Shown piece by piece: positions 2,634-17,488 of a stretch of DNA of 50,448 nucleotides. The stretch covers positions 1 through 50,448 of the forward strand of contig JAQUZO010000002.1 in the NCBI GenBank assembly GCA_028691285.1, in the 5' to 3' direction. The DNA is from Anaerovibrio sp. (GTDB lineage: Bacteria > Bacillota > Negativicutes > Selenomonadales > Selenomonadaceae). The notes beneath the pieces were generated by a model that saw only the letters and a program-made list of their open reading frames with translations, did no database searches and had not been told where the DNA came from. The stretch's first letter is position 1. Each line of letters opens with the position of its first letter. The translations under genes were made by a program, and so were the position numbers.

Positions 2634-4139
2634 TTATCTGTCAATACAGGCATAACAAAGCTCAAAGCTCTTATTGATCAGCGGAAAATCAGGAATGATA
2701 TCTCCCTGTACCGCAATGGTCAGCGCCGGCCAATTTGGGTAGGACGCACTGCGGACAAAAAGGCGATCAATCCTGCCTGCCCCGTCCAGCGCCAGGAAAT
2801 GAAAGTTGCTGCCCCGCGGCGATTCGCTGATTCCCCACGCCTCTCCGCCGCAATATTCCACATCGGCGCACAGAGGCATGCCCTGACAGTTTTCCAGCAT
2901 TTCCAGCAGCTTATCTGCCATTTCAAAGGAAGCAGACAGCTCACCGATTCTTACCAGCAGCCTGGCTGCCACATCTCCCATGGTTTTGGTATACGGCTTG
3001 AAATCAAGCTCAGGATAGATTCCATAGGCAAAATCGCTGCGGCTGTCATGGGCATAGCCGCTGGCACGGGCACCCACCCCCACCATGGCAAGGTCTTTGG
3101 CCGTTTTGGTACGGACAATGCCAGTAGTACGGATGCGGTTCTGGAAATTTTCCTGCTCCCTGAACATCGCCGCCAAATCCTCCACGCCCTCAGCAACATC
3201 ATCCAGCGTGCTGTGTATTTCCTCTATCAATTCCTGGGTAATATCCTGCCGCACACCGCCCGGCACAATCATGCCGCGCAGGAATCTGTTCCCGGCAATG
3301 CCCTCGCACAAACGCATCAGCTGCTCCTTCAGGCGTGAACCAAGGCTGATAGCAGGATTGAAGCCGACTCCGGCAGGCATATTGCCCAAATCACCGACAT
3401 GATTGGTGATTCTTTCCAGCTCAGACAGCAGGGTGCGGATAATCTCTGCCCGCCGCGGAACTGCCGCACCGGCTATTTTCTCTGCCGCCTGGCAAAAGCT
3501 CCAGGTATTGGCAATGCTGCAGGCACCGCAGATACGCTCCACGATATGCAGAGCCTCTGCGGGAGTTTTGCCCTCCACTGCCTTTTCAAGGCCGCGATGT
3601 GTAAAAAACAGCTTGGCATCAAGCTGCAGCATGGACTCGCCTGCCTGGCTGAAACGAAAATGCCCAGGCTCAATAATGCCGGCATGGATAGGCCCGACCG
3701 GCACCTCAAAAAGCCCCTGCCCTTTGGCAGTACGCATCTTGAACTGTCTCTCACCGCGTACCTTGGCATTGACCCGGACGGATTTTCTCAATGGATAAAA
3801 ATCTTCCGGATAGCTTTCGTGCAGTACCAACGGACGCAGATCAGGATGCCCCTCTGCCGTCAGACCAAACATATCCTTGATTTCACGCTCATACCAGGCA
3901 GCAGCCGGTATGGCATGCGTCAGGCTTGGATAGCTGAGGGAGCCCTCAGGCTCGAACGCCGCCTTGACAACGCAGATATCCTTCTTCTCAGGCAGCTCAA
4001 AGCAGCAGTATATGGCATAGCCTGCCCCCTGAGCTGTTTCATCCCGCCCGAACATGGCAGTCAGCGGATGCTGACCCTGGGCATAAACCTGCTCTGCTGC
4101 TGCCAGCAAAGACTCAGGACTGATTAATTTATCCATCAA
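2634..4139 (-). CDS. Group-4 hydrogenase large subunit (HyfG/HycE-like; NuoC-NuoD fusion)
   Basis: NuoC-like N-terminus (WYEREIKDMFGL...HPDLRPLVLHESYPEDFYPLRK); NuoD/HycE-like HFRFSQAGESMLQLDAKLFFTHRGLEK, ERICGACSIAN, ESPRGSNFHFLALDG; C-terminal LCYACIDR. Confidence 0.87.
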   Translation of the reverse strand: MMDKLISPESLLAAAEQVYAQGQHPLTAMFGRDETAQGAGYAIYCCFELPEKKDICVVKAAFEPEGSLSYPSLTHAIPAAAWYEREIKDMFGLTAEGHPDLRPLVLHESYPEDFYPLRKSVRVNAKVRGERQFKMRTAKGQGLFEVPVGPIHAGIIEPGHFRFSQAGESMLQLDAKLFFTHRGLEKAVEGKTPAEALHIVERICGACSIANTWSFCQAAEKIAGAAVPRRAEIIRTLLSELERITNHVGDLGNMPAGVGFNPAISLGSRLKEQLMRLCEGIAGNRFLRGMIVPGGVRQDITQELIEEIHSTLDDVAEGVEDLAAMFREQENFQNRIRTTGIVRTKTAKDLAMVGVGARASGYAHDSRSDFAYGIYPELDFKPYTKTMGDVAARLLVRIGELSASFEMADKLLEMLENCQGMPLCADVEYCGGEAWGISESPRGSNFHFLALDGAGRIDRLFVRSASYPNWPALTIAVQGDIIPDFPLINKSFELCYACIDR

Positions 4140-5638
4140 CTGACACCTCCCAGGACAATCTGCGCAGCATGGCTCAGCAGATTATTCAGCACTGTAATTT
4201 CACTCAATCCGGCACTGGCAGCACAGCTGAAAAGCAGCAGCCCCGCCAGGGCCAGTGAATCCGTAAAGCCCAAAAGCTCTCCTGCAGATTTCTTTTTTGC
4301 CTGACCGCCGAACATACGCATAACATGATACAAAATTCCAATCAGCATGCCTGCCAGCAAAATCAGCAACAGAATTCCCAGCCACGGATGATCTGCCTGA
4401 AAAAAGCCAAAAATAATATAGAACTTGCTGAAGAAGATGCCAAAAGGCGGCATCCCCAGGATTCCCACGATGCCCAGCAGCCAGAACATGGCTGTCCTTG
4501 GCGTCTGAGTCATCATGCCGTGGATGCGCATCATATTCTTCGTGCCAAATTCCTCCATAATAGTACCGGCTGTGTAAAAGAGCGAATATTTTACCAAAGC
4601 ATGATTAAACATGTGCAAAAGCATTGCCTGAGCTGCAGATGGAACGAAAAGCCCCAGCCCTGCCATCATCAGGCCAAAATTTTCCATGGAGGAATACGCC
4701 AGCATACGCTTGACATCTCTCTGTACCAGCACAAAAGGCACAGCAGCAGCCACCGTGAACAGTCCGAAGAACAAGCACAGACCGCTGATGAAATCCACAC
4801 CTATCGCCGGCAGCAGGATAATGATATTCCTGATCAGTACATAAAGAGCACAAATACACAGGGACCCGGACAAAAGCCCGCTGGTCAGTGCAGGTGCCTC
4901 GGAATGGGCATCCGGCAGCCAGGCGTGCATCGGTGCCAGACCGATCTTAGTTCCATAGCCCACAAACAGAAAACAGAATGCAAACCTTGCCATAGGCGAA
5001 TCGATGCTGTCCACATGCTGCGCCATATAAAGCCAGTCCAGAGGATTGGCAGGCCCGATATCCGTGAGCTGGATATAATACACCAGAATCGTGCCCAGCA
5101 ATGCCAGACAGATTCCCACGGTACATACCATGACATATTTCCAGGCTGCCTCCAGAGAAGTTCTGGTGAACTTAAAGGCTACCAGCAAAGCAGAAACCAG
5201 CGTCGTAGCCTCAATAGCCACCCACATCAGGCCAAGATTGTTCACCGTAACCACCACGAGCATGATCCAGACAAAGATATGGGACAGGGCATAAAAGCGC
5301 CCCTCCAGACGCCCAAAGCGGCGCAGGTAGCCATAGCGCTTGTTGGTATCTCTGTCCAGGTACGCCTTGCTTGTCCAGGCAAAGGCAAGGTACAGGGTAC
5401 CGATTATCAACAGCATCCACACGCTCAATGCGTCCAGATACAGATAGGCATCCCGATAGGGAGAATACACATCAAAGCTCGCCACCAAAAGGGCAATCGC
5501 GCCGAAAACAGCAGTTGCAGCCAGCCTGTTCAGCCAATGCAGGACATCCTTGTGCAGCAGATTGACTGCTGAAATCATACTGAAAACCACAGGCAGTGCA
5601 AGTATGATATAGATAAGGTCACTTATACTAAAATTCAT
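4136..5638 (-). CDS. Hydrogenase-4 subunit F-like (NuoN/MrpD-family antiporter-like)
   Basis: Polytopic; GTKIGLAPMHAWLPDAHSEAPALTSGLLSG and DVKRMLAYSSMENFGLMMAGLG motifs. Confidence 0.85.
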   Translation of the reverse strand: MNFSISDLIYIILALPVVFSMISAVNLLHKDVLHWLNRLAATAVFGAIALLVASFDVYSPYRDAYLYLDALSVWMLLIIGTLYLAFAWTSKAYLDRDTNKRYGYLRRFGRLEGRFYALSHIFVWIMLVVVTVNNLGLMWVAIEATTLVSALLVAFKFTRTSLEAAWKYVMVCTVGICLALLGTILVYYIQLTDIGPANPLDWLYMAQHVDSIDSPMARFAFCFLFVGYGTKIGLAPMHAWLPDAHSEAPALTSGLLSGSLCICALYVLIRNIIILLPAIGVDFISGLCLFFGLFTVAAAVPFVLVQRDVKRMLAYSSMENFGLMMAGLGLFVPSAAQAMLLHMFNHALVKYSLFYTAGTIMEEFGTKNMMRIHGMMTQTPRTAMFWLLGIVGILGMPPFGIFFSKFYIIFGFFQADHPWLGILLLILLAGMLIGILYHVMRMFGGQAKKKSAGELLGFTDSLALAGLLLFSCAASAGLSEITVLNNLLSHAAQIVLGGVS

Positions 5639-5642
5639 CTCA

Positions 5643-6272
5643 TTACCCCTTCAGCTTCTTCATAACACTGGTATCCGTAGTCATAAAGGACAAACGCATC
5701 CTGGAGGTCAGGATGACCAGTACGACCACGGCAATCAGGACATCAAGGAAAACGCCCAGCTCTACCACCAGAGGCAGCCCTTCAGTCATGAGAAGGCCCA
5801 GGAGGTAAATACCGTTTTCCAGGGTAATCAGCCCAACAATCTGTATGATTGCGCGCTTGCGCAGCACCATCAGGGATAAACCCGTCATGATCATCAAAAT
5901 CGAGGCAGCAATAATATCGCGTCCGGCAGAGCCAGGCAGCAGCCTTTCCACTATAGCATAGCCCATCACCAAAAAAAGCGCTGCGGCCATAGTTGAATAA
6001 TTGACATTGCTTTCTGATAAAATTTCCCGCTCATTGGTCAGCTTGCCTACCAGATTCCAAACAGCCCCCGGAATGAATATCACCTTGACAGCCAGAGTCA
6101 GGATACCAGGCAGCAGTGCATGCAGCCCCGAGCCGGATGACAGTCCCAGCCCAAAACAGGCAATGGAAATGATAACAGATTGACTGGCAAGACAGATAAC
6201 GGCCCGCCGTAAATTTGTAATTCTGGTCTGCAGAAATACTACAAGAACCAGAAATACCACTAAATACTCCAT
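5643..6272 (-). CDS. Hydrogenase-4 subunit E-like (NuoK-like)
   Basis: MEYLVVFLVLVVFLQTRITNLRRAVICLASQSVIISIACFGL...GLITLENGIYLLGLLMTEGLPLVVELGVFLDVLIAVVVLVIL. Start placed at 6272. Confidence 0.82.
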   Translation of the reverse strand: MEYLVVFLVLVVFLQTRITNLRRAVICLASQSVIISIACFGLGLSSGSGLHALLPGILTLAVKVIFIPGAVWNLVGKLTNEREILSESNVNYSTMAAALFLVMGYAIVERLLPGSAGRDIIAASILMIMTGLSLMVLRKRAIIQIVGLITLENGIYLLGLLMTEGLPLVVELGVFLDVLIAVVVLVILTSRMRLSFMTTDTSVMKKLKG

Positions 6273-6285
6273 TTTTCCGTCCTCC

Positions 6286-7170
6286 TCACTCTGCAATAAT
6301 CGCCAGCAGCAACAAAACAATCGCCGCCCCCATATAAACACGCACCTTAAAAAGACGCATCTTGTTGTTGAGTATTTCTACAACACCAATCAAGACAGCA
6401 CAGCATAGAATTTTTACTGCCAGCGGTACGGACAGGGGTAAATAAAGAGCACCGAACAGTGTCAGGAAAACCATCATCTTCAGCATACTGCCCAGATGGA
6501 TCAGAGCCAGCAAGGGCCCTGAATATTCCAGAGTCATGCCCTCATGAATCATGGTCAGCTCCAAATGAGTATCCGGATTATCTACCGGCAGACGGCAGTT
6601 CTCAGCCAGAATCACCAAAAAGAATGCCACGCATGCCAGAGCAGCAGATACCGTAAAATATGCACCGTCATAGTCAATGACCATACCCGATAAAGTAGTG
6701 GTATGATACCGCAGGCTGTTGATGAGGATAGCCAGCATCACTGCCGGTTCTACCAGCACGGAAATATAAATTTCCCTGGCGCCGCCCATCCCGCCGAAAG
6801 CAGTAGCCGCATCCATGGAAGACAACGACATAAAGAACCGTCCCAGGGCAAGGATATAAACAAAAACAAATGCGTCGCTGATAGTCAGCTGCCCTGCCAA
6901 AAAGCCCGGCACCATAGCTGCCGCCAGAAAACTGGTCATGAAATACACTATCGGCGCCAAAATGAAAATGCTGCTGGTATACGGTGTCAGGATGACCGGC
7001 TTCCTCCACCACTTGCGCAGATCAAAATACTCCTGCAGGACACTCGCCCCCTGACGCTTCTGCAGTCGCGCCTTCACCTTGCTGATGATTCCGGCAAGCA
7101 AAGGTGCAAAGGCGAGAAGAACAAGGGCCTGTACTATATTGAGAGCCAAGCCTTCAAGAATGTAGCCCAT
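6286..7170 (-). CDS. Hydrogenase-4 subunit C-like (HycD/NuoH family)
   Basis: PLLAGIISKVKARLQKRQGASVLQEYFDLRKWWRK...FGGMGGAREIYISVLVEPAVML...LPVDNPDTHLELTMIHEGMTLEYSGP are HycD/HyfC signatures. Confidence 0.87.
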   Translation of the reverse strand: MGYILEGLALNIVQALVLLAFAPLLAGIISKVKARLQKRQGASVLQEYFDLRKWWRKPVILTPYTSSIFILAPIVYFMTSFLAAAMVPGFLAGQLTISDAFVFVYILALGRFFMSLSSMDAATAFGGMGGAREIYISVLVEPAVMLAILINSLRYHTTTLSGMVIDYDGAYFTVSAALACVAFFLVILAENCRLPVDNPDTHLELTMIHEGMTLEYSGPLLALIHLGSMLKMMVFLTLFGALYLPLSVPLAVKILCCAVLIGVVEILNNKMRLFKVRVYMGAAIVLLLLAIIAE

Positions 7171-9158
7171 TATAATACCCCCCAGATTAAAACAAAAATC
7201 ATGGCAAGCATGGTATAGCCGATATAAAGGCTCACACTGCCCTCCTGAATATGCCGGAATGCCGAGGATGAAGCAATCATCCAGGTTTGAACAGGCTTAT
7301 ACAGCTTCTCGGTAAACAAATCCGGAATCTCCAGGTAGAATTTCATCTTGCGGCCATAATAATCATGATCCTTCCTCAGATATTCCGTATGGCGCTGAGG
7401 GTTGAGAATCGTGCCGAAGGCACGGCGCAGCGGCTTGCTGAAGCCGGTTGCCGTATACTGCTGACGGCTGGTTGGATATGTACCGCAGTTCCAGGTCACA
7501 TCGCGGCGCACAAAGCCCCTGGTCGTGCCGATAAAAATTGCTGCGATAAAAATGCCCAGTAATATGGCAAGAGCCAAAATGAGTACAGGACTATATACAG
7601 CATAATGTCCGCTGCCGCCCCAGATAATGCCGAAAGCACCACCCATCGGTGTACTGAGAGGTCCGGCCACCACACTCTGCATAACATTGACTACAGGGTC
7701 AGGGACAACGCCAGCCGCCACCACCAAAAAGGCTGCTATGCCCATCCCAAGCAGCATGAAAAATGGCTGCTCATGAGCATTCTCGACAATATGGCTGCGT
7801 GGGCGTCCCAAAAAAGCAATGCCGTAGAGGCGCACAAAGCAGCCCAGAGCTGCCGCGCCCGTAAGCCCCAGCATAATAAAGGCAAAAATCACCAAAAGGC
7901 GCAGCTCCGGCGTGCCTGCCTGCTGTGCAAGTGTAATAAAGCTCTGCAGCACCAGCCACTCCCCAATCAGGCCGCTGGTGAAGGGCATGGAGGACAATGC
8001 CATCGCTCCGATAAGCGTAAAAAATGCCGTGTAAGGCATCTTTTTGATCAGACCACCCATTTTTTCGATGTTTTTGCTGCCCACGGCGTGCATGACCGCA
8101 CCAGCACTCATGAACATCAGCCCCTTCATCAGGCTGTGGCTGAAAGCATGCACCATAGCAGCTGTAAAGGCTACGACAGCCAGCGGTGCCAGATTCATGG
8201 ACATCAAAACCATGCCGCAGCCAAAAGCGGCAAAAATAATACCCATATTTTCTACGGAGGAATATGCAAGAATGCGCTTCATATCAACTTCCATCGTGCC
8301 GTAAAGAACCGCCAGGAAGGCAGAAACCAAGCCAACAAGCATGACCAGCAGGCCATACCAGAATACATCCATGCCAATGAACTGAAAAACAAAGCGCCCA
8401 AAGCCATAAAGAGCCACCTTCAGCATGACACCACTCATGAGAGCAGATACATGGCTCGGTGCCGCAGGATGGGCATTCGGCAGCCAGATATGCAGCGGCA
8501 TAAGTCCCGATTTCAGGGCAAAGCCTGCAAAGGCACATAAAAAAGCGATATGGCGCATAATACCGTCCAGGTTATTATGCATCATATCAGCAAAGGAAAA
8601 GCTGGCAGAATGGCTGCCCAGCAGATAAAAAGCAATCAGAATCGCTGCAGTGCCAAGATGGGTCATCACCATATACTGATAGGCCGCCGCCACGGTATCC
8701 TTATTGCCCGCTTCATGGTTGACCAGCAAAAAGGATACCAGCGCCATAATTTCCCAGGCAACAATAAAAGTAAAGGCATCACCAGCAAGCAGAACTGCCG
8801 TGATAGACAGCAGAAAAAGATTCCACAGGCCAGTCAGGGCACGGATACGCTTACCTAGATACCCCTTGGCATAATCTAAAGCATAAATGCTGATAAAAAA
8901 ACCGGCAATCCCGGTTATAGATACAAACACACCACTCCAGCCATCTGCTATCAGGGAATAACTGCCCCAGGATGCATCAATCAGCAATGCAGACTTCGGC
9001 ATAATCAGATATGCTATCCCGCTGAATGCTGTCATCCCGCTGGCAGCCACCGCACAGAGCATCCCCGCATAATGTGCGGTCAGCTCCAGCTTCTTTGGCC
9101 AGATAATGGTCAGTGCTCCCACTAGATAAACCAGCAGGGACCCTAACAATACATTCAT
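7170..9158 (-). CDS. Hydrogenase-4 subunit B-like (HycC/NuoL family)
   Basis: 662 aa polytopic; KSGLMPLHIWLPNAHPAAPSHVSALMSGVMLK and DMKRILAYSSVENMGIIFAAFG motifs; gene order hyfB-C-E-F-G-I. Confidence 0.87.
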   Translation of the reverse strand: MNVLLGSLLVYLVGALTIIWPKKLELTAHYAGMLCAVAASGMTAFSGIAYLIMPKSALLIDASWGSYSLIADGWSGVFVSITGIAGFFISIYALDYAKGYLGKRIRALTGLWNLFLLSITAVLLAGDAFTFIVAWEIMALVSFLLVNHEAGNKDTVAAAYQYMVMTHLGTAAILIAFYLLGSHSASFSFADMMHNNLDGIMRHIAFLCAFAGFALKSGLMPLHIWLPNAHPAAPSHVSALMSGVMLKVALYGFGRFVFQFIGMDVFWYGLLVMLVGLVSAFLAVLYGTMEVDMKRILAYSSVENMGIIFAAFGCGMVLMSMNLAPLAVVAFTAAMVHAFSHSLMKGLMFMSAGAVMHAVGSKNIEKMGGLIKKMPYTAFFTLIGAMALSSMPFTSGLIGEWLVLQSFITLAQQAGTPELRLLVIFAFIMLGLTGAAALGCFVRLYGIAFLGRPRSHIVENAHEQPFFMLLGMGIAAFLVVAAGVVPDPVVNVMQSVVAGPLSTPMGGAFGIIWGGSGHYAVYSPVLILALAILLGIFIAAIFIGTTRGFVRRDVTWNCGTYPTSRQQYTATGFSKPLRRAFGTILNPQRHTEYLRKDHDYYGRKMKFYLEIPDLFTEKLYKPVQTWMIASSSAFRHIQEGSVSLYIGYTMLAMIFVLIWGVL

Positions 9159-13007: not shown

Positions 13008-14000
13008 TCAGTTTTCCAGAGCCTCCCAGGCTGCATTTGCACGCTTGACAAATATATCACGCACTGCCTTGTTTTCACCAATGCCATGAATATAGGTCTG
13101 TACCTGGATACCCTCCTTCATCAGAATTGACTTGTGAGAATCCTCCTCGTCTCCGGCCATGTCATTGTTGGCATGATCTCCGGCAACCATCATAAACGGC
13201 ATCAGAGTAACCTTGTTTATTTTCTTCGCCTTCAGCTTTGGAATGATGGTTTCCAGGCTTGGCCAGCCTTCAACGGTCTCAATGAATACATTGTCATAGC
13301 CCATTTCCTGCAGCTTCTCCTGAATAACAGCATAATAAGCGTTGGAAATGTTCGGTGTGCCATGAGCCATCAGGACGACGCCCTCACCCTTCCTGGTCTT
13401 CGGGAACTGGGTTGCCAGTGCCTGCAGCGTCTCAGTCACATCGTCAGCCTGTCCCTCCTGTCCCTGCCAATACATCAGAGGTACGCCGATGGTCATTTTT
13501 TTGAAATTTGCCTTGTAATTGTGGAATACCCCTAAATCATAATCATATTCCATGCCAGGAATAACATTCAGGTTGGTCAGGGCAACGCGGGTATAGCCCT
13601 CAGCCTTCAGCTGATCCAGAGCCTCCTCAGGAGTCGGGAACACAATGCCTTCATTTTTCTTTACCCTGTCAATGATAATATGAGAGGTATATGCCGTAAC
13701 TACCTTGACGCCAGGATGAGCAGCCTTGACAGCATTGATGGTCGCATCAATGGTCTTTGCCCTGGTATCGGTGAAGGTTGTACCAAAGGTCATAACCACG
13801 ATAGCATCCTTGTTGGCAAGATTCTGCAGGGCAGGATTTGCATAGGACTGCACACCCATCTGAGAAGCAGAAAGCAAGGCAGGCGTTGCTGTAGTTACCT
13901 CAGGGTTCAGCTCATAGGCAGCCTCTGAAGTGATTGGGCTGGCAGTAAAAACTGCACCCACAGCGACAGCAGCCACAAAAATTTTTTTCCAGTTGTTCAT
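13008..14000 (-). CDS. cbiK: Sirohydrochlorin cobaltochelatase, CbiK family, predicted exported
   Basis: N-terminal signal peptide MNNWKKIFVAAVAVGAVFTASPITSEAA; CbiK motifs VVMTFGTTFTDTRAKTIDAT, VVLMAHGTPN, PFMMVAGDHANNDMAGDEEDSHKS. Confidence 0.88.
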   Translation of the reverse strand: MNNWKKIFVAAVAVGAVFTASPITSEAAYELNPEVTTATPALLSASQMGVQSYANPALQNLANKDAIVVMTFGTTFTDTRAKTIDATINAVKAAHPGVKVVTAYTSHIIIDRVKKNEGIVFPTPEEALDQLKAEGYTRVALTNLNVIPGMEYDYDLGVFHNYKANFKKMTIGVPLMYWQGQEGQADDVTETLQALATQFPKTRKGEGVVLMAHGTPNISNAYYAVIQEKLQEMGYDNVFIETVEGWPSLETIIPKLKAKKINKVTLMPFMMVAGDHANNDMAGDEEDSHKSILMKEGIQVQTYIHGIGENKAVRDIFVKRANAAWEALEN

Positions 14001-14154
14001 AAAAGAAATCCTCCTTATATAAAATAAGTATGACAGCAGCCAATCTCTGACAAAACAGCTGCCCTTAACAACTCCCCAGAGGGAAAGTCATTCTTTCTTT
14101 AGAACCCATACATTTTCCTACAGCTCCGGCTATCTATATCTGTGCCAGGATGCT

Positions 14155-15183
14155 TTATTTTTCGAGGCTGCTGTTTTTACGCAGCAGGTAGAGGAAATAC
14201 GGTGTTCCTAAAAACGCCGTCATGATTCCTACATTGACCTCGGTTTTTTCAATCAATACCCTGCCCAGGGAATCGCAGAACAGGAGGAACACCCCTCCTG
14301 CCACAACGCTCGCTGGCAGCAGATATTTGTGGTTCGGACCGACCAGCATACGCATCATGTGTGGGATAATCAGCCCCACAAAGCCGATACTGCCGCTGAT
14401 GCAGACGCTGGTTGCCGTAGTCATGGCAGCTACCAGCAAAAGTATCAGTCTGTACTTGACGACCGGCATTCCCACTGCCTTGGCTTCCGCTTCACCCAAA
14501 GCAAGAATATTCAGATGGCGTGCCATCAGCAGCATCAGCCCAATTCCCATAACAATCGGACCCGCTCCCATGAGTACATGCTCCCACCGGCGGTAATCAA
14601 GGCTGCCAATCGTCCAAAACAGATACTGCTGCAGCTTGTATTCATCCATAACCACCAGCATAGCCGCGGTAATCGCTCCCAAAAGCATCCCCACAACTAC
14701 ACCTGACAGCAGCAGCGTCAAGACAGGTATCCGTCCGTTTCTGGTTGCCAGCCCGATGGTCATGAATACTGCCAGCAATGCGCCAACAAAGGCAAATGCA
14801 GGCATAGCGAACATACTGACAGTATTTATACCCAGACTGATTGCCATTACGGCGCCTACTGTTGCTCCACTGGATACTCCGACAATACCGGGATCTGCCA
14901 GTGGGTTGCTGAACAGCCCCTGCAGAACCGTACCGGAAGCAGCCAAACCGGCTCCCACCATAAACCCCACCAAGGTCCTTGGCGAGCGTATGAACATCAG
15001 CACCGCCTCCTGCTGGGCGGATACACTGACATCCTGCAGGAAAGGCAGTCCCAGCTGATGGCAGAACCAGGCAGCTACCTGGATGAAGCTCAAATCATAT
15101 TGCCCTGCCGACAGAGAAAAACCGAAGGTCAGCACTGCCATCCCCCCCAGCAGTGCCGCTGTCAGTTTGCGATGATACCTCAT
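14155..15183 (-). CDS. FecCD/BtuC-family ABC transporter permease
   Basis: SPRTLVGFMVGAGLAASGTVLQGLFSNPLADPGIVGVSSGATVGAV and GSIGFVGLIIPHMMRMLVGPNHKYLLPAS. Confidence 0.9.
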   Translation of the reverse strand: MRYHRKLTAALLGGMAVLTFGFSLSAGQYDLSFIQVAAWFCHQLGLPFLQDVSVSAQQEAVLMFIRSPRTLVGFMVGAGLAASGTVLQGLFSNPLADPGIVGVSSGATVGAVMAISLGINTVSMFAMPAFAFVGALLAVFMTIGLATRNGRIPVLTLLLSGVVVGMLLGAITAAMLVVMDEYKLQQYLFWTIGSLDYRRWEHVLMGAGPIVMGIGLMLLMARHLNILALGEAEAKAVGMPVVKYRLILLLVAAMTTATSVCISGSIGFVGLIIPHMMRMLVGPNHKYLLPASVVAGGVFLLFCDSLGRVLIEKTEVNVGIMTAFLGTPYFLYLLRKNSSLEK

Positions 15184-16043
15184 AGTGCCTCACCGCCCTT
15201 CTGTCCGTCAGCACAGCTGCCGATAATAGTATCAAGCAGCCTTCTTTTGGCTGTATCTGCCGGAGCTGCTTCCGTGTATATATCCGCATGGCCGGTTTCC
15301 GGATTGCGGGTCGATCTTATCCTTGCATCATAGCCGCTGCTCAGAATCTCATCCGTCAGGACATCCTCCGGCAGTCCGTCTGCCAGGAGTCTGCCCTGCC
15401 TGAAAAGCAGGAGCCTGCTGCAGTATCTGGCGGCCAAATTCAGCTCATGCACCACCATAGCCACAGTTTTGCCGCGCTGGCACAGCTCCTGGCAAAAGCG
15501 GAAAATCTCCTCCTGATAGAACAAATCCAGCCCGGCAGCAGGCTCATCCAAAAACAGGACCGGTGTCTGCTGTGCCAAAACCTTGGCCAAAAGCACTCTC
15601 TGCCGCTGCCCTCCGGAGAGGGAACGAATCGGCTTTTCTGCCATCCCCAGCACATCAGTGTATTCCATGCAGGCTTCTGCAATCCTGCGGTCATCATCAT
15701 CCTGCTGCTGCCACCATTTTTTGTATGGATAGCGCCCTGCTGTCACAATATCCCGCACCGTATAATCAAAGGTCAGCTCTACCTGCTGCTGCAGGTAGGA
15801 AATACTCCTGGCCAGCTCCAGCTGGCTGTAAGCAGCTATATCTTTACCGGCAATCAGGATTTTGCCGCCACGCAATGGCAAAAAGCCCCGCATGGATTTT
15901 AAAAGCGTACTTTTGCCTGCACCGTTTTTGCCGATGATACCCACAAACTCACCCTGCCTGATATGGAAATCCAGATTATTTAAAATGACCTCATTTTCAT
16001 TGTACCCAGCCGTTGCATTCTGCACCTGGATAATAGCTTCCAT
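15180..16043 (-). CDS. BtuD/FecE-family ABC transporter ATPase
   Basis: Walker A GKNGAGKST, signature LSGGQRQRVLLAKVLAQ, Walker B VLFLDEPAAGLD. Overlaps permease start by 4 nt. Confidence 0.92.
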   Translation of the reverse strand: MEAIIQVQNATAGYNENEVILNNLDFHIRQGEFVGIIGKNGAGKSTLLKSMRGFLPLRGGKILIAGKDIAAYSQLELARSISYLQQQVELTFDYTVRDIVTAGRYPYKKWWQQQDDDDRRIAEACMEYTDVLGMAEKPIRSLSGGQRQRVLLAKVLAQQTPVLFLDEPAAGLDLFYQEEIFRFCQELCQRGKTVAMVVHELNLAARYCSRLLLFRQGRLLADGLPEDVLTDEILSSGYDARIRSTRNPETGHADIYTEAAPADTAKRRLLDTIIGSCADGQKGGEAL

Positions 16044-16080
16044 TCGTATACCTCTCCATCTGAACTATAATCCGGTTCTC

Positions 16081-17079
16081 TTAATCAACGGCAGATAAAT
16101 GCTGCTGGTCATCCAGCTTGAATTCATCACCATACACAGTGTAGGCGATCTCCTGGACTCCATAGCAGAAATCCTGAGAAGCCGTATAAATATATGAATC
16201 TCTTGGTTCTCTGATGCTGCCGTTCCGGATTGCCTTCATCTGCTGCAGGGCCGGATCCTTGAGGTACTTGTCACGGAAGCTCTGCAGGTCAAAGGTTCCA
16301 TGCGCAGTGTAGGTAGGCAGGAAAATAATATCCGGATCCATCTGGACCATCATTTCCTTGGTCAGCTTGTCACCGCGCTTCAAGCCATATTCAGACAGGC
16401 AGTTTGTTGCCCCAGCCAGCTGGCAGGCCTCATCATAAATGCAATCCTTGCCGCCATAGTTATTCATCAGGGAAATCAACAGTACTCTTTTTCGTTCGCT
16501 TTGTGGAATCCTGTCCACCTTGGCCTTGATTTCCTGCAGCTTTTCATCCATCATGGCAATCAGTCTGCTGCCCCGCTGGGGCTCACCCACGGCTTTTGCA
16601 ATCAGGCCGATATTGTCCCGCACATCCTGAAGGCTCTTGGGGCCCTTGACTACTACAACCTTGATTCCCATGTTCCGCAGTGACTCGACATAACCAATGT
16701 CGCCCCAGTCTGACGCAACCACCAGGTCTGGCTCCATCGCCAGGATTTCCTCAACCTTGGGATGGCGCACCTTGTTGGGAATGTTTTTTGCCAGCTCCAC
16801 CACATTGGAGCTGACCGGATCATCTATCAGTACATTGGCACAGACGATTCTTTCAGGCTTTACCAGGCCCAGCAGAATATTGTCCGTACTGATGGTCAGG
16901 CTGGCAATACGCTTTGGCTTCTCCGCAAAGTCCACCACTGTTCCCTGGTCATCTGTCACCTGATAACTGCCCTTATCCGGAGCAGCCGTCTGATTCAGTC
17001 CGCAACCTGCCAGGCTGAGCATAAATATTATCAGCAGGCAAAAACGCACTGCGCTGCTTTTCTCTTTTTTTAAATCCAA
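16081..17079 (-). CDS. BtuF/FhuD-like ABC substrate-binding lipoprotein
   Basis: Lipobox LSLAGC; PKRIASLTISTDNILLGL...EEILAMEPDLVVAS...NMGIKVVVVKGPKSLQDVRDNIGLIAKAVGE; adjacent to permease and ATPase. Confidence 0.87.
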   Translation of the reverse strand: MDLKKEKSSAVRFCLLIIFMLSLAGCGLNQTAAPDKGSYQVTDDQGTVVDFAEKPKRIASLTISTDNILLGLVKPERIVCANVLIDDPVSSNVVELAKNIPNKVRHPKVEEILAMEPDLVVASDWGDIGYVESLRNMGIKVVVVKGPKSLQDVRDNIGLIAKAVGEPQRGSRLIAMMDEKLQEIKAKVDRIPQSERKRVLLISLMNNYGGKDCIYDEACQLAGATNCLSEYGLKRGDKLTKEMMVQMDPDIIFLPTYTAHGTFDLQSFRDKYLKDPALQQMKAIRNGSIREPRDSYIYTASQDFCYGVQEIAYTVYGDEFKLDDQQHLSAVD

Positions 17080-17116
17080 AGCACTTTCCTCTTTTCCTAA
17101 GCTGTTCTCTCACTAC

Positions 17117-17150
17117 AAAAAAAGCCTTCCCTCCAAGCTGAAGGAAAAGC
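17117..17150 (-). terminator. Rho-independent terminator in the riboswitch expression platform
   Basis: Minus strand GCTTTTCCTTC-AGCTT-GGAGGGAAGGC (11 pairs incl. G-U) then TTTTTTT, between the cobalamin aptamer and the substrate-binding-protein start. Confidence 0.75.
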
Positions 17151-17214
17151 CGCATATCCATAGCCTTAAGGCTACAAATCCCCTTCCCATCGCTCGCAGG
17201 TATACTGCAGCGAA

Positions 17215-17420
17215 AACGCCGCAGCTCGGTGATTGTTAAACAGGCAATTCTTCTGGCTCGGGTTCACAGCGTCTCTGTGCCTTCTCAGGTTTCCCCAATG
17301 ACATAACTTATACAGAGTCGCTCCCCCTTACAGCGGCGGGACCGCATCGGCTTATACCGATTTTTTTATTAAGTCTCACATACATGCCTTGCAAAAGGCA
17401 TGTATACGACACCTGCTCCA
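17215..17420 (-). ncRNA. Cobalamin riboswitch aptamer
   Basis: Minus strand GCGGTCCCGCCGCTGTAAGGGGGAGCGACTC..., GGAAACCTGAGAAGGC, and B12-box-like CGAGCCAGAAGAATTGCC, followed by TGTTTAACAATCACC; upstream of a BtuF/D/C-CbiK operon. Confidence 0.88.
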
Positions 17421-17459
17421 ACATATTGAATTATAAAATTTGTTCTACAACTAATGCTA

Positions 17460-17488
17460 AGTATATGCCGAAAGCTATTGTTTGTCAA
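17460..17488 (-). promoter_or_regulatory. Promoter of the riboswitch/ABC/cbiK operon
   Basis: TTGACA - 17 nt - TATACT on minus strand, ~40 nt upstream of the aptamer 5' helix. Confidence 0.75.

Follow-up and report, generated by a model that had tools for sequence, protein, structure and literature searches.

An exported CbiK-family chelatase linked to an ABC importer and a cobalamin riboswitch in Anaerovibrio and related genomes

The reason for a CbiK-family chelatase to work outside the cytoplasm has been in question since such an enzyme was found in Desulfovibrio, and an operon in the window analysed here (50,448 nucleotides of contig JAQUZO010000002.1 from Anaerovibrio sp., genome G000) raises it again. 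Its genes, all on the minus strand, run in the order substrate-binding lipoprotein, ATPase, FecCD permease and CbiK, and the operon comprises the following features:

17488-17460, minus strand: sigma-70 type promoter, TTGACA-17-TATACT, 11 of 12 positions, a consensus match only
17226-17431, minus strand: cobalamin riboswitch aptamer, RF00174, 84.3 bits over the full model (1-189), gathering score 31.5
17151-17123, minus strand: intrinsic terminator forming the riboswitch expression platform, 13-pair stem and T tract
16081-17079, minus strand: class III substrate-binding lipoprotein, labelled BtuF, PF01497 (80 bits), TTG start, lipobox LAGC
15180-16043, minus strand: ABC importer ATPase of BtuD/HmuV type, PF00005
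14155-15183, minus strand: FecCD-family permease of BtuC type, PF01032 (306 bits)
13008-14000, minus strand: exported CbiK-family class II chelatase, PF06180 (284 bits against a cut-off of 26.2)
13920-14000, minus strand: predicted CbiK signal peptide, residues 1-27, with n, h and c regions and an SEA|AY site
13815-13919, minus strand: conserved N-terminal arm of CbiK, residues 28-62, between leader and chelatase domain
13000-12967, minus strand: terminator 3' of cbiK at the operon end, a stem-loop then a T tract (RNA fold)

A sequence-only reading of this locus had described a promoter, cobalamin aptamer and terminator ahead of genes for a binding protein, ATPase, permease and signal-peptide CbiK, and the RF00174 and promoter matches listed above confirm that arrangement. 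The core motifs of the aptamer line up with those of 12 other aptamers, and the riboswitch leader folds better than shuffled sequences (z -2.8). The ATPase and permease genes overlap by 4 bp, and 154 bp separate the permease gene (btuC) from cbiK. A separate B12-independent promoter for cbiK, which the same reading had named as a possible objection, is not apparent, as the 154-bp gap is free of riboswitches and, on the operon strand, of consensus promoters and terminators; a hidden regulatory element of either kind directly ahead of cbiK was rejected on these grounds. Riboswitch control of the operon, and linkage of the chelatase to the importer, are both supported, and plentiful B12 would be expected to stop transcription of chelatase and importer together.

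Across its entire chelatase domain, the predicted structure of the window CbiK aligns with Salmonella CbiK (1qgo) and D. vulgaris 2xvz (TM 0.92-0.93 of target length), and its His/Glu/His metal site (H213, E244, H276) is invariant among 26 aligned CbiK proteins. We regard it as a member of the PF06180 family and no more than a putative equivalent of biosynthetic CbiK, given a score of 215 bits against the cut-off of 400 for the NCBIfam equivalog NF047852. MNNWKKIFVAAVAVGAVFTASPITSEA|AYELN, at the N-terminus, is consistent with a Sec signal peptide, and the earlier proposal of such a peptide is strengthened by recurrence of the leader pattern, in divergent letters, in dozens of CbiK orthologues; signal peptides were called by a home-made heuristic leader score together with conservation, and the cleavage site is a prediction. 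Between leader and domain lies an arm of about 35 residues in which L31, V35, T39, A41, L42, A45, G49 and V50 are invariant in 27 sequences. This arm is modelled with low to moderate confidence. A dN/dS of about 0.11, against 0.07 in the domain (one sequence pair), indicates purifying selection, and all arm-type CbiK proteins form a single clade (support 100/99 in a tree of 40 rows). One aligned position corresponds to what we take to be the haem-ligand His of D. vulgaris CbiK(P); it is Asn in the window CbiK and Asn or Asp in nearly all of its clade, and because of this replacement we do not file the window protein as a haem-binding CbiK(P).

The identity of the importer is less clear. That it is a three-gene ABC importer stands, but its earlier description as BtuF/D/C-type is not proven: none of the three proteins reaches the NCBIfam cut-off for BtuF, BtuC or BtuD, the best match of the permease being BtuC (296 bits, cut-off 461) and those of the ATPase being corrinoid and haem ABC ATPases, both under cut-off. 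The fold of the binding protein is nearest to the haem binder RhuT, with BtuF ranking lower, in a comparison that could not tell haem, siderophore and B12 binders apart by fold. The importer would work like a class II importer, with BtuFDC as a candidate label only.

The remainder of the genome alters how the locus is read. It was correct that no other cbi genes lie nearby, but that statement misleads, as G000 carries elsewhere a CbiD match (weak, 6.3e-18), seven tetrapyrrole methylases including CbiL, and another CbiK that lacks a leader and lies on a different contig from the window operon. As these occur together with one Met8-like protein, G000 very probably makes its own corrin ring and would not depend on the exported CbiK alone. 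The notion of an isolated salvage gene was rejected, given the de novo B12 pathway in this genome. Five cobalamin riboswitches precede, respectively, the btuFDC-cbiK operon, two TonB receptor loci, a transporter operon on contig C14, and methylmalonyl-CoA mutase. On C14 (L009, 946-7905) the riboswitch is followed by a CitMHS-like gene, a DctA-like gene, an ABC-2 pair and Znu-like ABC genes. On contig C95 (L011) a riboswitch with a strong terminator (7123-7426) directly precedes the methylmalonyl-CoA mutase genes (2678-7098); this enzyme is B12-dependent, and the usual off-switch logic would shut it off when its cofactor is present. A plasmid search returned distant matches only, all under 60% identity.

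Across 201 relatives from the same class, which is probably Negativicutes, CbiK was found in 193 and CbiD in 185. Six of the eight genomes without a CbiK match also lack CbiD, and two f7 genomes without CbiD carry leaderless CbiK only (open frames of 272-273 aa). By the simple leader score, 60 fetched loci contain 52 exported copies, 38 of which have a B12 riboswitch no more than 700 bp upstream; the loci were picked from best matches with long open frames, and the counts describe that sample. In four further exported CbiK of the window's genus the riboswitch lies above btuF, and the btuFDC-cbiK order recurs in four other fetched genomes of that genus. In the f15, f23 and f28 loci, no B12 riboswitch was detected for most exported copies (L095 has one). 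A survey of importer and riboswitch linkage had been suggested for signal-peptide CbiK; here 38 of 52 copies are riboswitch-linked, and an importer operon occurs in ten families. The sequence-only reading had missed this class-wide conservation, as well as the corrin pathway, the leaderless CbiK, the operon link to CbiL and ABC-2 genes, and the Desulfovibrio precedent. On these genomic and regulatory grounds, exported CbiK is best placed in the B12/cobalt regulon rather than in haem uptake. We found no published description of the class-wide pattern, in a search that covered few subscription papers.

Gene order was also read in relatives, where genes were labelled by phmmer with single seeds. 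The order CbiK, CbiL, binding protein, FecCD permease, ATPase occurs in 13 loci, and in two more without CbiL; these 15 CbiK-headed importer loci span ten families, and in ten of them an ABC-2 exporter pair continues the operon. In five other loci CbiK, an ABC-2 pair and importer genes of Znu-like type share one strand, spaced by as much as about 2 kb; homologues of this ABC-2 pair and of the Znu-like genes are those behind their own riboswitch on C14 of G000. In L050 the CbiL passes its NCBIfam cut-off, and the best match of the binding protein is the haem binder IsdE, at 142 bits and under cut-off. As CbiL acts on what CbiK makes, these operons are tied more firmly to cobalt-sirohydrochlorin than to haem. 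All of the gene-order evidence comes from related genomes, so the loci do not count as independent.

Several further features of these neighbourhoods merit description. The CbiK leader is unreadable in two of the 15 importer loci (L080 and L085); in L080 (7830-8855) a change of frame immediately ahead of the first start codon seems to disrupt the signal peptide, in a CbiK-CbiL-importer operon that is otherwise complete. In L058 (905-6199) a B12 riboswitch, a leaderless arm-type CbiK paralogue, a NifH-like gene and two nitrogenase component 1-like genes stand in a row, placing a chelatase with a nitrogenase-like reductase under B12 control. A protein of about 320 residues that carries a leader and matches nothing in Pfam or NCBIfam is encoded near CbiK in L079 (9351-10316), and also in L083, L086, L094 and L102; it looks like an outer-membrane porin. 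Many relatives have SigH (cluster c12) upstream, which was discounted as a neighbouring gene rather than an operon member.

Some genomes carry a sole CbiK. One CbiK match each was found in the genera g9 (12 genomes), g33 (four) and g8 (two); all 18 have CbiD and several are closed. None of these groups has a separate CbiX, as CbiX matches fall inside CbiK itself. In the fetched members in which the leader was read (L050, L051, L066 and L073, a subset of these genomes), CbiK is of the exported arm type, and by position a riboswitch lies directly ahead of CbiK in 10 of the 12 g9 genomes. NicO is absent from all 17 genomes tested among these 18; CbiM is absent from G023 and, as no other g9 genome is among the CbiM matches listed, apparently from the rest of g9. 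Met8-type proteins occur in nearly all of 26 genomes tested. In these organisms, either the exported CbiK would perform the biosynthetic step, or Met8-type proteins would insert cobalt in the cytoplasm.

What the DNA itself shows is the riboswitch, the layout of the operon, the signal peptide and active site of CbiK, conservation across the class, and co-occurrence with de novo B12 synthesis; the mechanism that they serve is a matter of probability. CbiK family enzymes have sirohydrochlorin as their substrate. The best mechanism, to which we give somewhat less than an even chance, is that a sirohydrochlorin-type tetrapyrrole would receive Co2+ from exported CbiK beyond the inner membrane, after which an ABC importer of the regulon would bring in the cobalt-tetrapyrrole for use by CbiL. 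The window would represent the inner-membrane portion of a regulon for cobalt/corrinoid acquisition, repressed by B12, in a diderm that builds the corrin ring itself. We count in favour of this mechanism the operon riboswitch, the linkage in 38 of 52 copies, the order of CbiL, importer and ABC-2 genes, the invariant His/Glu/His site, the sole-CbiK genomes without a separate CbiX and, in the 17 tested, without NicO, and the riboswitch operon of G000 (L009) with its ABC-2 homologues and Znu-like importer genes. Metal loading of an extracytoplasmic tetrapyrrole, as first suggested for this locus, is supported at the level of inference. Against the mechanism, the window binding protein is not IsdE-like, the window operon lacks both cbiL and the ABC-2 pair, and exported CbiK of f15, f23 and f28 is mostly without a detected B12 riboswitch. 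Further, the leaderless CbiK of G000 could perform the biosynthetic step, and in genomes with no CbiK other than the exported one, cytoplasmic cobalt insertion might be the work of Met8-type proteins. The presence of sirohydrochlorin outside the inner membrane, and of its exporter, we infer with gene order as the sole basis. The same basis underlies the boldest form of the mechanism, in which sirohydrochlorin would be the cell's own cobalt carrier, leaving through the linked ABC-2 pair, receiving Co2+ from exported CbiK, returning as Co-sirohydrochlorin through the IsdE-like importer and being handed over to CbiL. Such a shuttle, which would place part of B12 synthesis outside the inner membrane and might replace a dedicated cobalt importer, we consider rather doubtful.

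Other explanations fit portions of these data. If the leader were inefficient, or the protein had two locations, CbiK could be a cytoplasmic biosynthetic enzyme making Co-sirohydrochlorin for CbiL inside the cell. Its operon with CbiL, whose substrate is the CbiK product, its status as sole CbiK in g8, g9 and g33, and two arm-type copies without a leader (L058 and L059) are consistent with this; but a signal-peptide pattern kept in dozens of divergent genes, and a separate leaderless CbiK in G000, make it unlikely. An exported trap that has no catalytic turnover but keeps Co2+, or a precursor that has been released, available to the importer in the envelope would be in keeping with the signal peptide, importer linkage and B12 control. 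The full catalytic residue set is under strong constraint, however, and we think a trap quite unlikely.

A role on the haem side, as proposed for P. gingivalis IhtB/FetB, would have CbiK bind haem or remove its iron and pass what results on to the importer. The nearest structures include FetB (9b86) and D. vulgaris CbiK(P), the window binding protein resembles RhuT, and IhtB is located in a TonB receptor/ABC locus (PMC10913741). Control is nonetheless by B12 in most of the class and not by iron, exported CbiK tracks CbiD and is linked to CbiL, and the position of the D. vulgaris haem ligand is Asn or Asp in nearly all of the clade, which together render this role decidedly improbable. A haem chaperone, earlier floated for the window protein, is not supported by the regulation or by that residue, and was set aside as the main reading in view of B12 control, CbiD tracking and the lost His. 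Lastly, CbiK might assist corrinoid salvage by repairing or re-metallating cobalt-free corrinoids from a BtuB-like receptor before import, in keeping with the BtuFDC-like importer of the window, the TonB receptors under other B12 riboswitches of G000, and loci joining CbiK, TonB receptor and importer (L054, L058 and L061). This we judge very unlikely, as CbiK family enzymes are generally known to act on sirohydrochlorin, CbiD is likewise missing from six of the eight genomes without CbiK, and a leaderless CbiK is all that the two f7 genomes without CbiD have.

The question of why CbiK would act outside the cytoplasm becomes testable here, since exported CbiK is common in the whole class and mostly B12-controlled, and a single CbiK serves a B12 producer in several closed genomes without a separate CbiX. 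If exported CbiK does perform the biosynthetic step, then a step of B12 synthesis would cross the membrane, and cobalt would enter as a tetrapyrrole complex.

Several known systems bear comparison with the window operon. Salmonella CbiK is cytoplasmic and encoded within the cob operon; the window protein shares its family, fold and active site (1qgo, TM 0.93 of target length). Like BtuFCD importers under B12 riboswitches, the window has a three-gene importer behind a cobalamin riboswitch; unlike them, it has a chelatase as fourth gene, and a BtuFCD substrate for its importer is putative. Another exported CbiK homologue, IhtB of P. gingivalis, belongs to a haem/iron system that also includes an ABC importer and a TonB receptor (PMC10913741). 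IhtB/FetB (9b86) differs from the window CbiK as a lipoprotein with a proposed iron-removal role in a haem auxotroph, and we found no report of a B12 riboswitch for that system in the literature that we looked at. A further parallel is Desulfovibrio, where the CbiK gene of the B12-element operon is presumably that for CbiK(P). Like D. vulgaris CbiK(P), which is described as periplasmic and has solved structures (2xvx and 2xvz), the window CbiK has the same fold and active site; it differs in its 35-residue conserved arm and in Asn at the haem-ligand His position. A single B12-element controlling cbiK-cbiL and btuCDF was reported in Desulfovibrio in 2004 (PMC545781), whereas the window operon lacks cbiL and has cbiK last, after btuFDC. 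Periplasmic CbiK and B12-controlled cbiK-cbiL-btuCDF are already known from Desulfovibrio, and what is new is the class-wide pattern, the N-terminal arm with its conserved residues, and the arrangement btuFDC-cbiK in the genus to which the window belongs.
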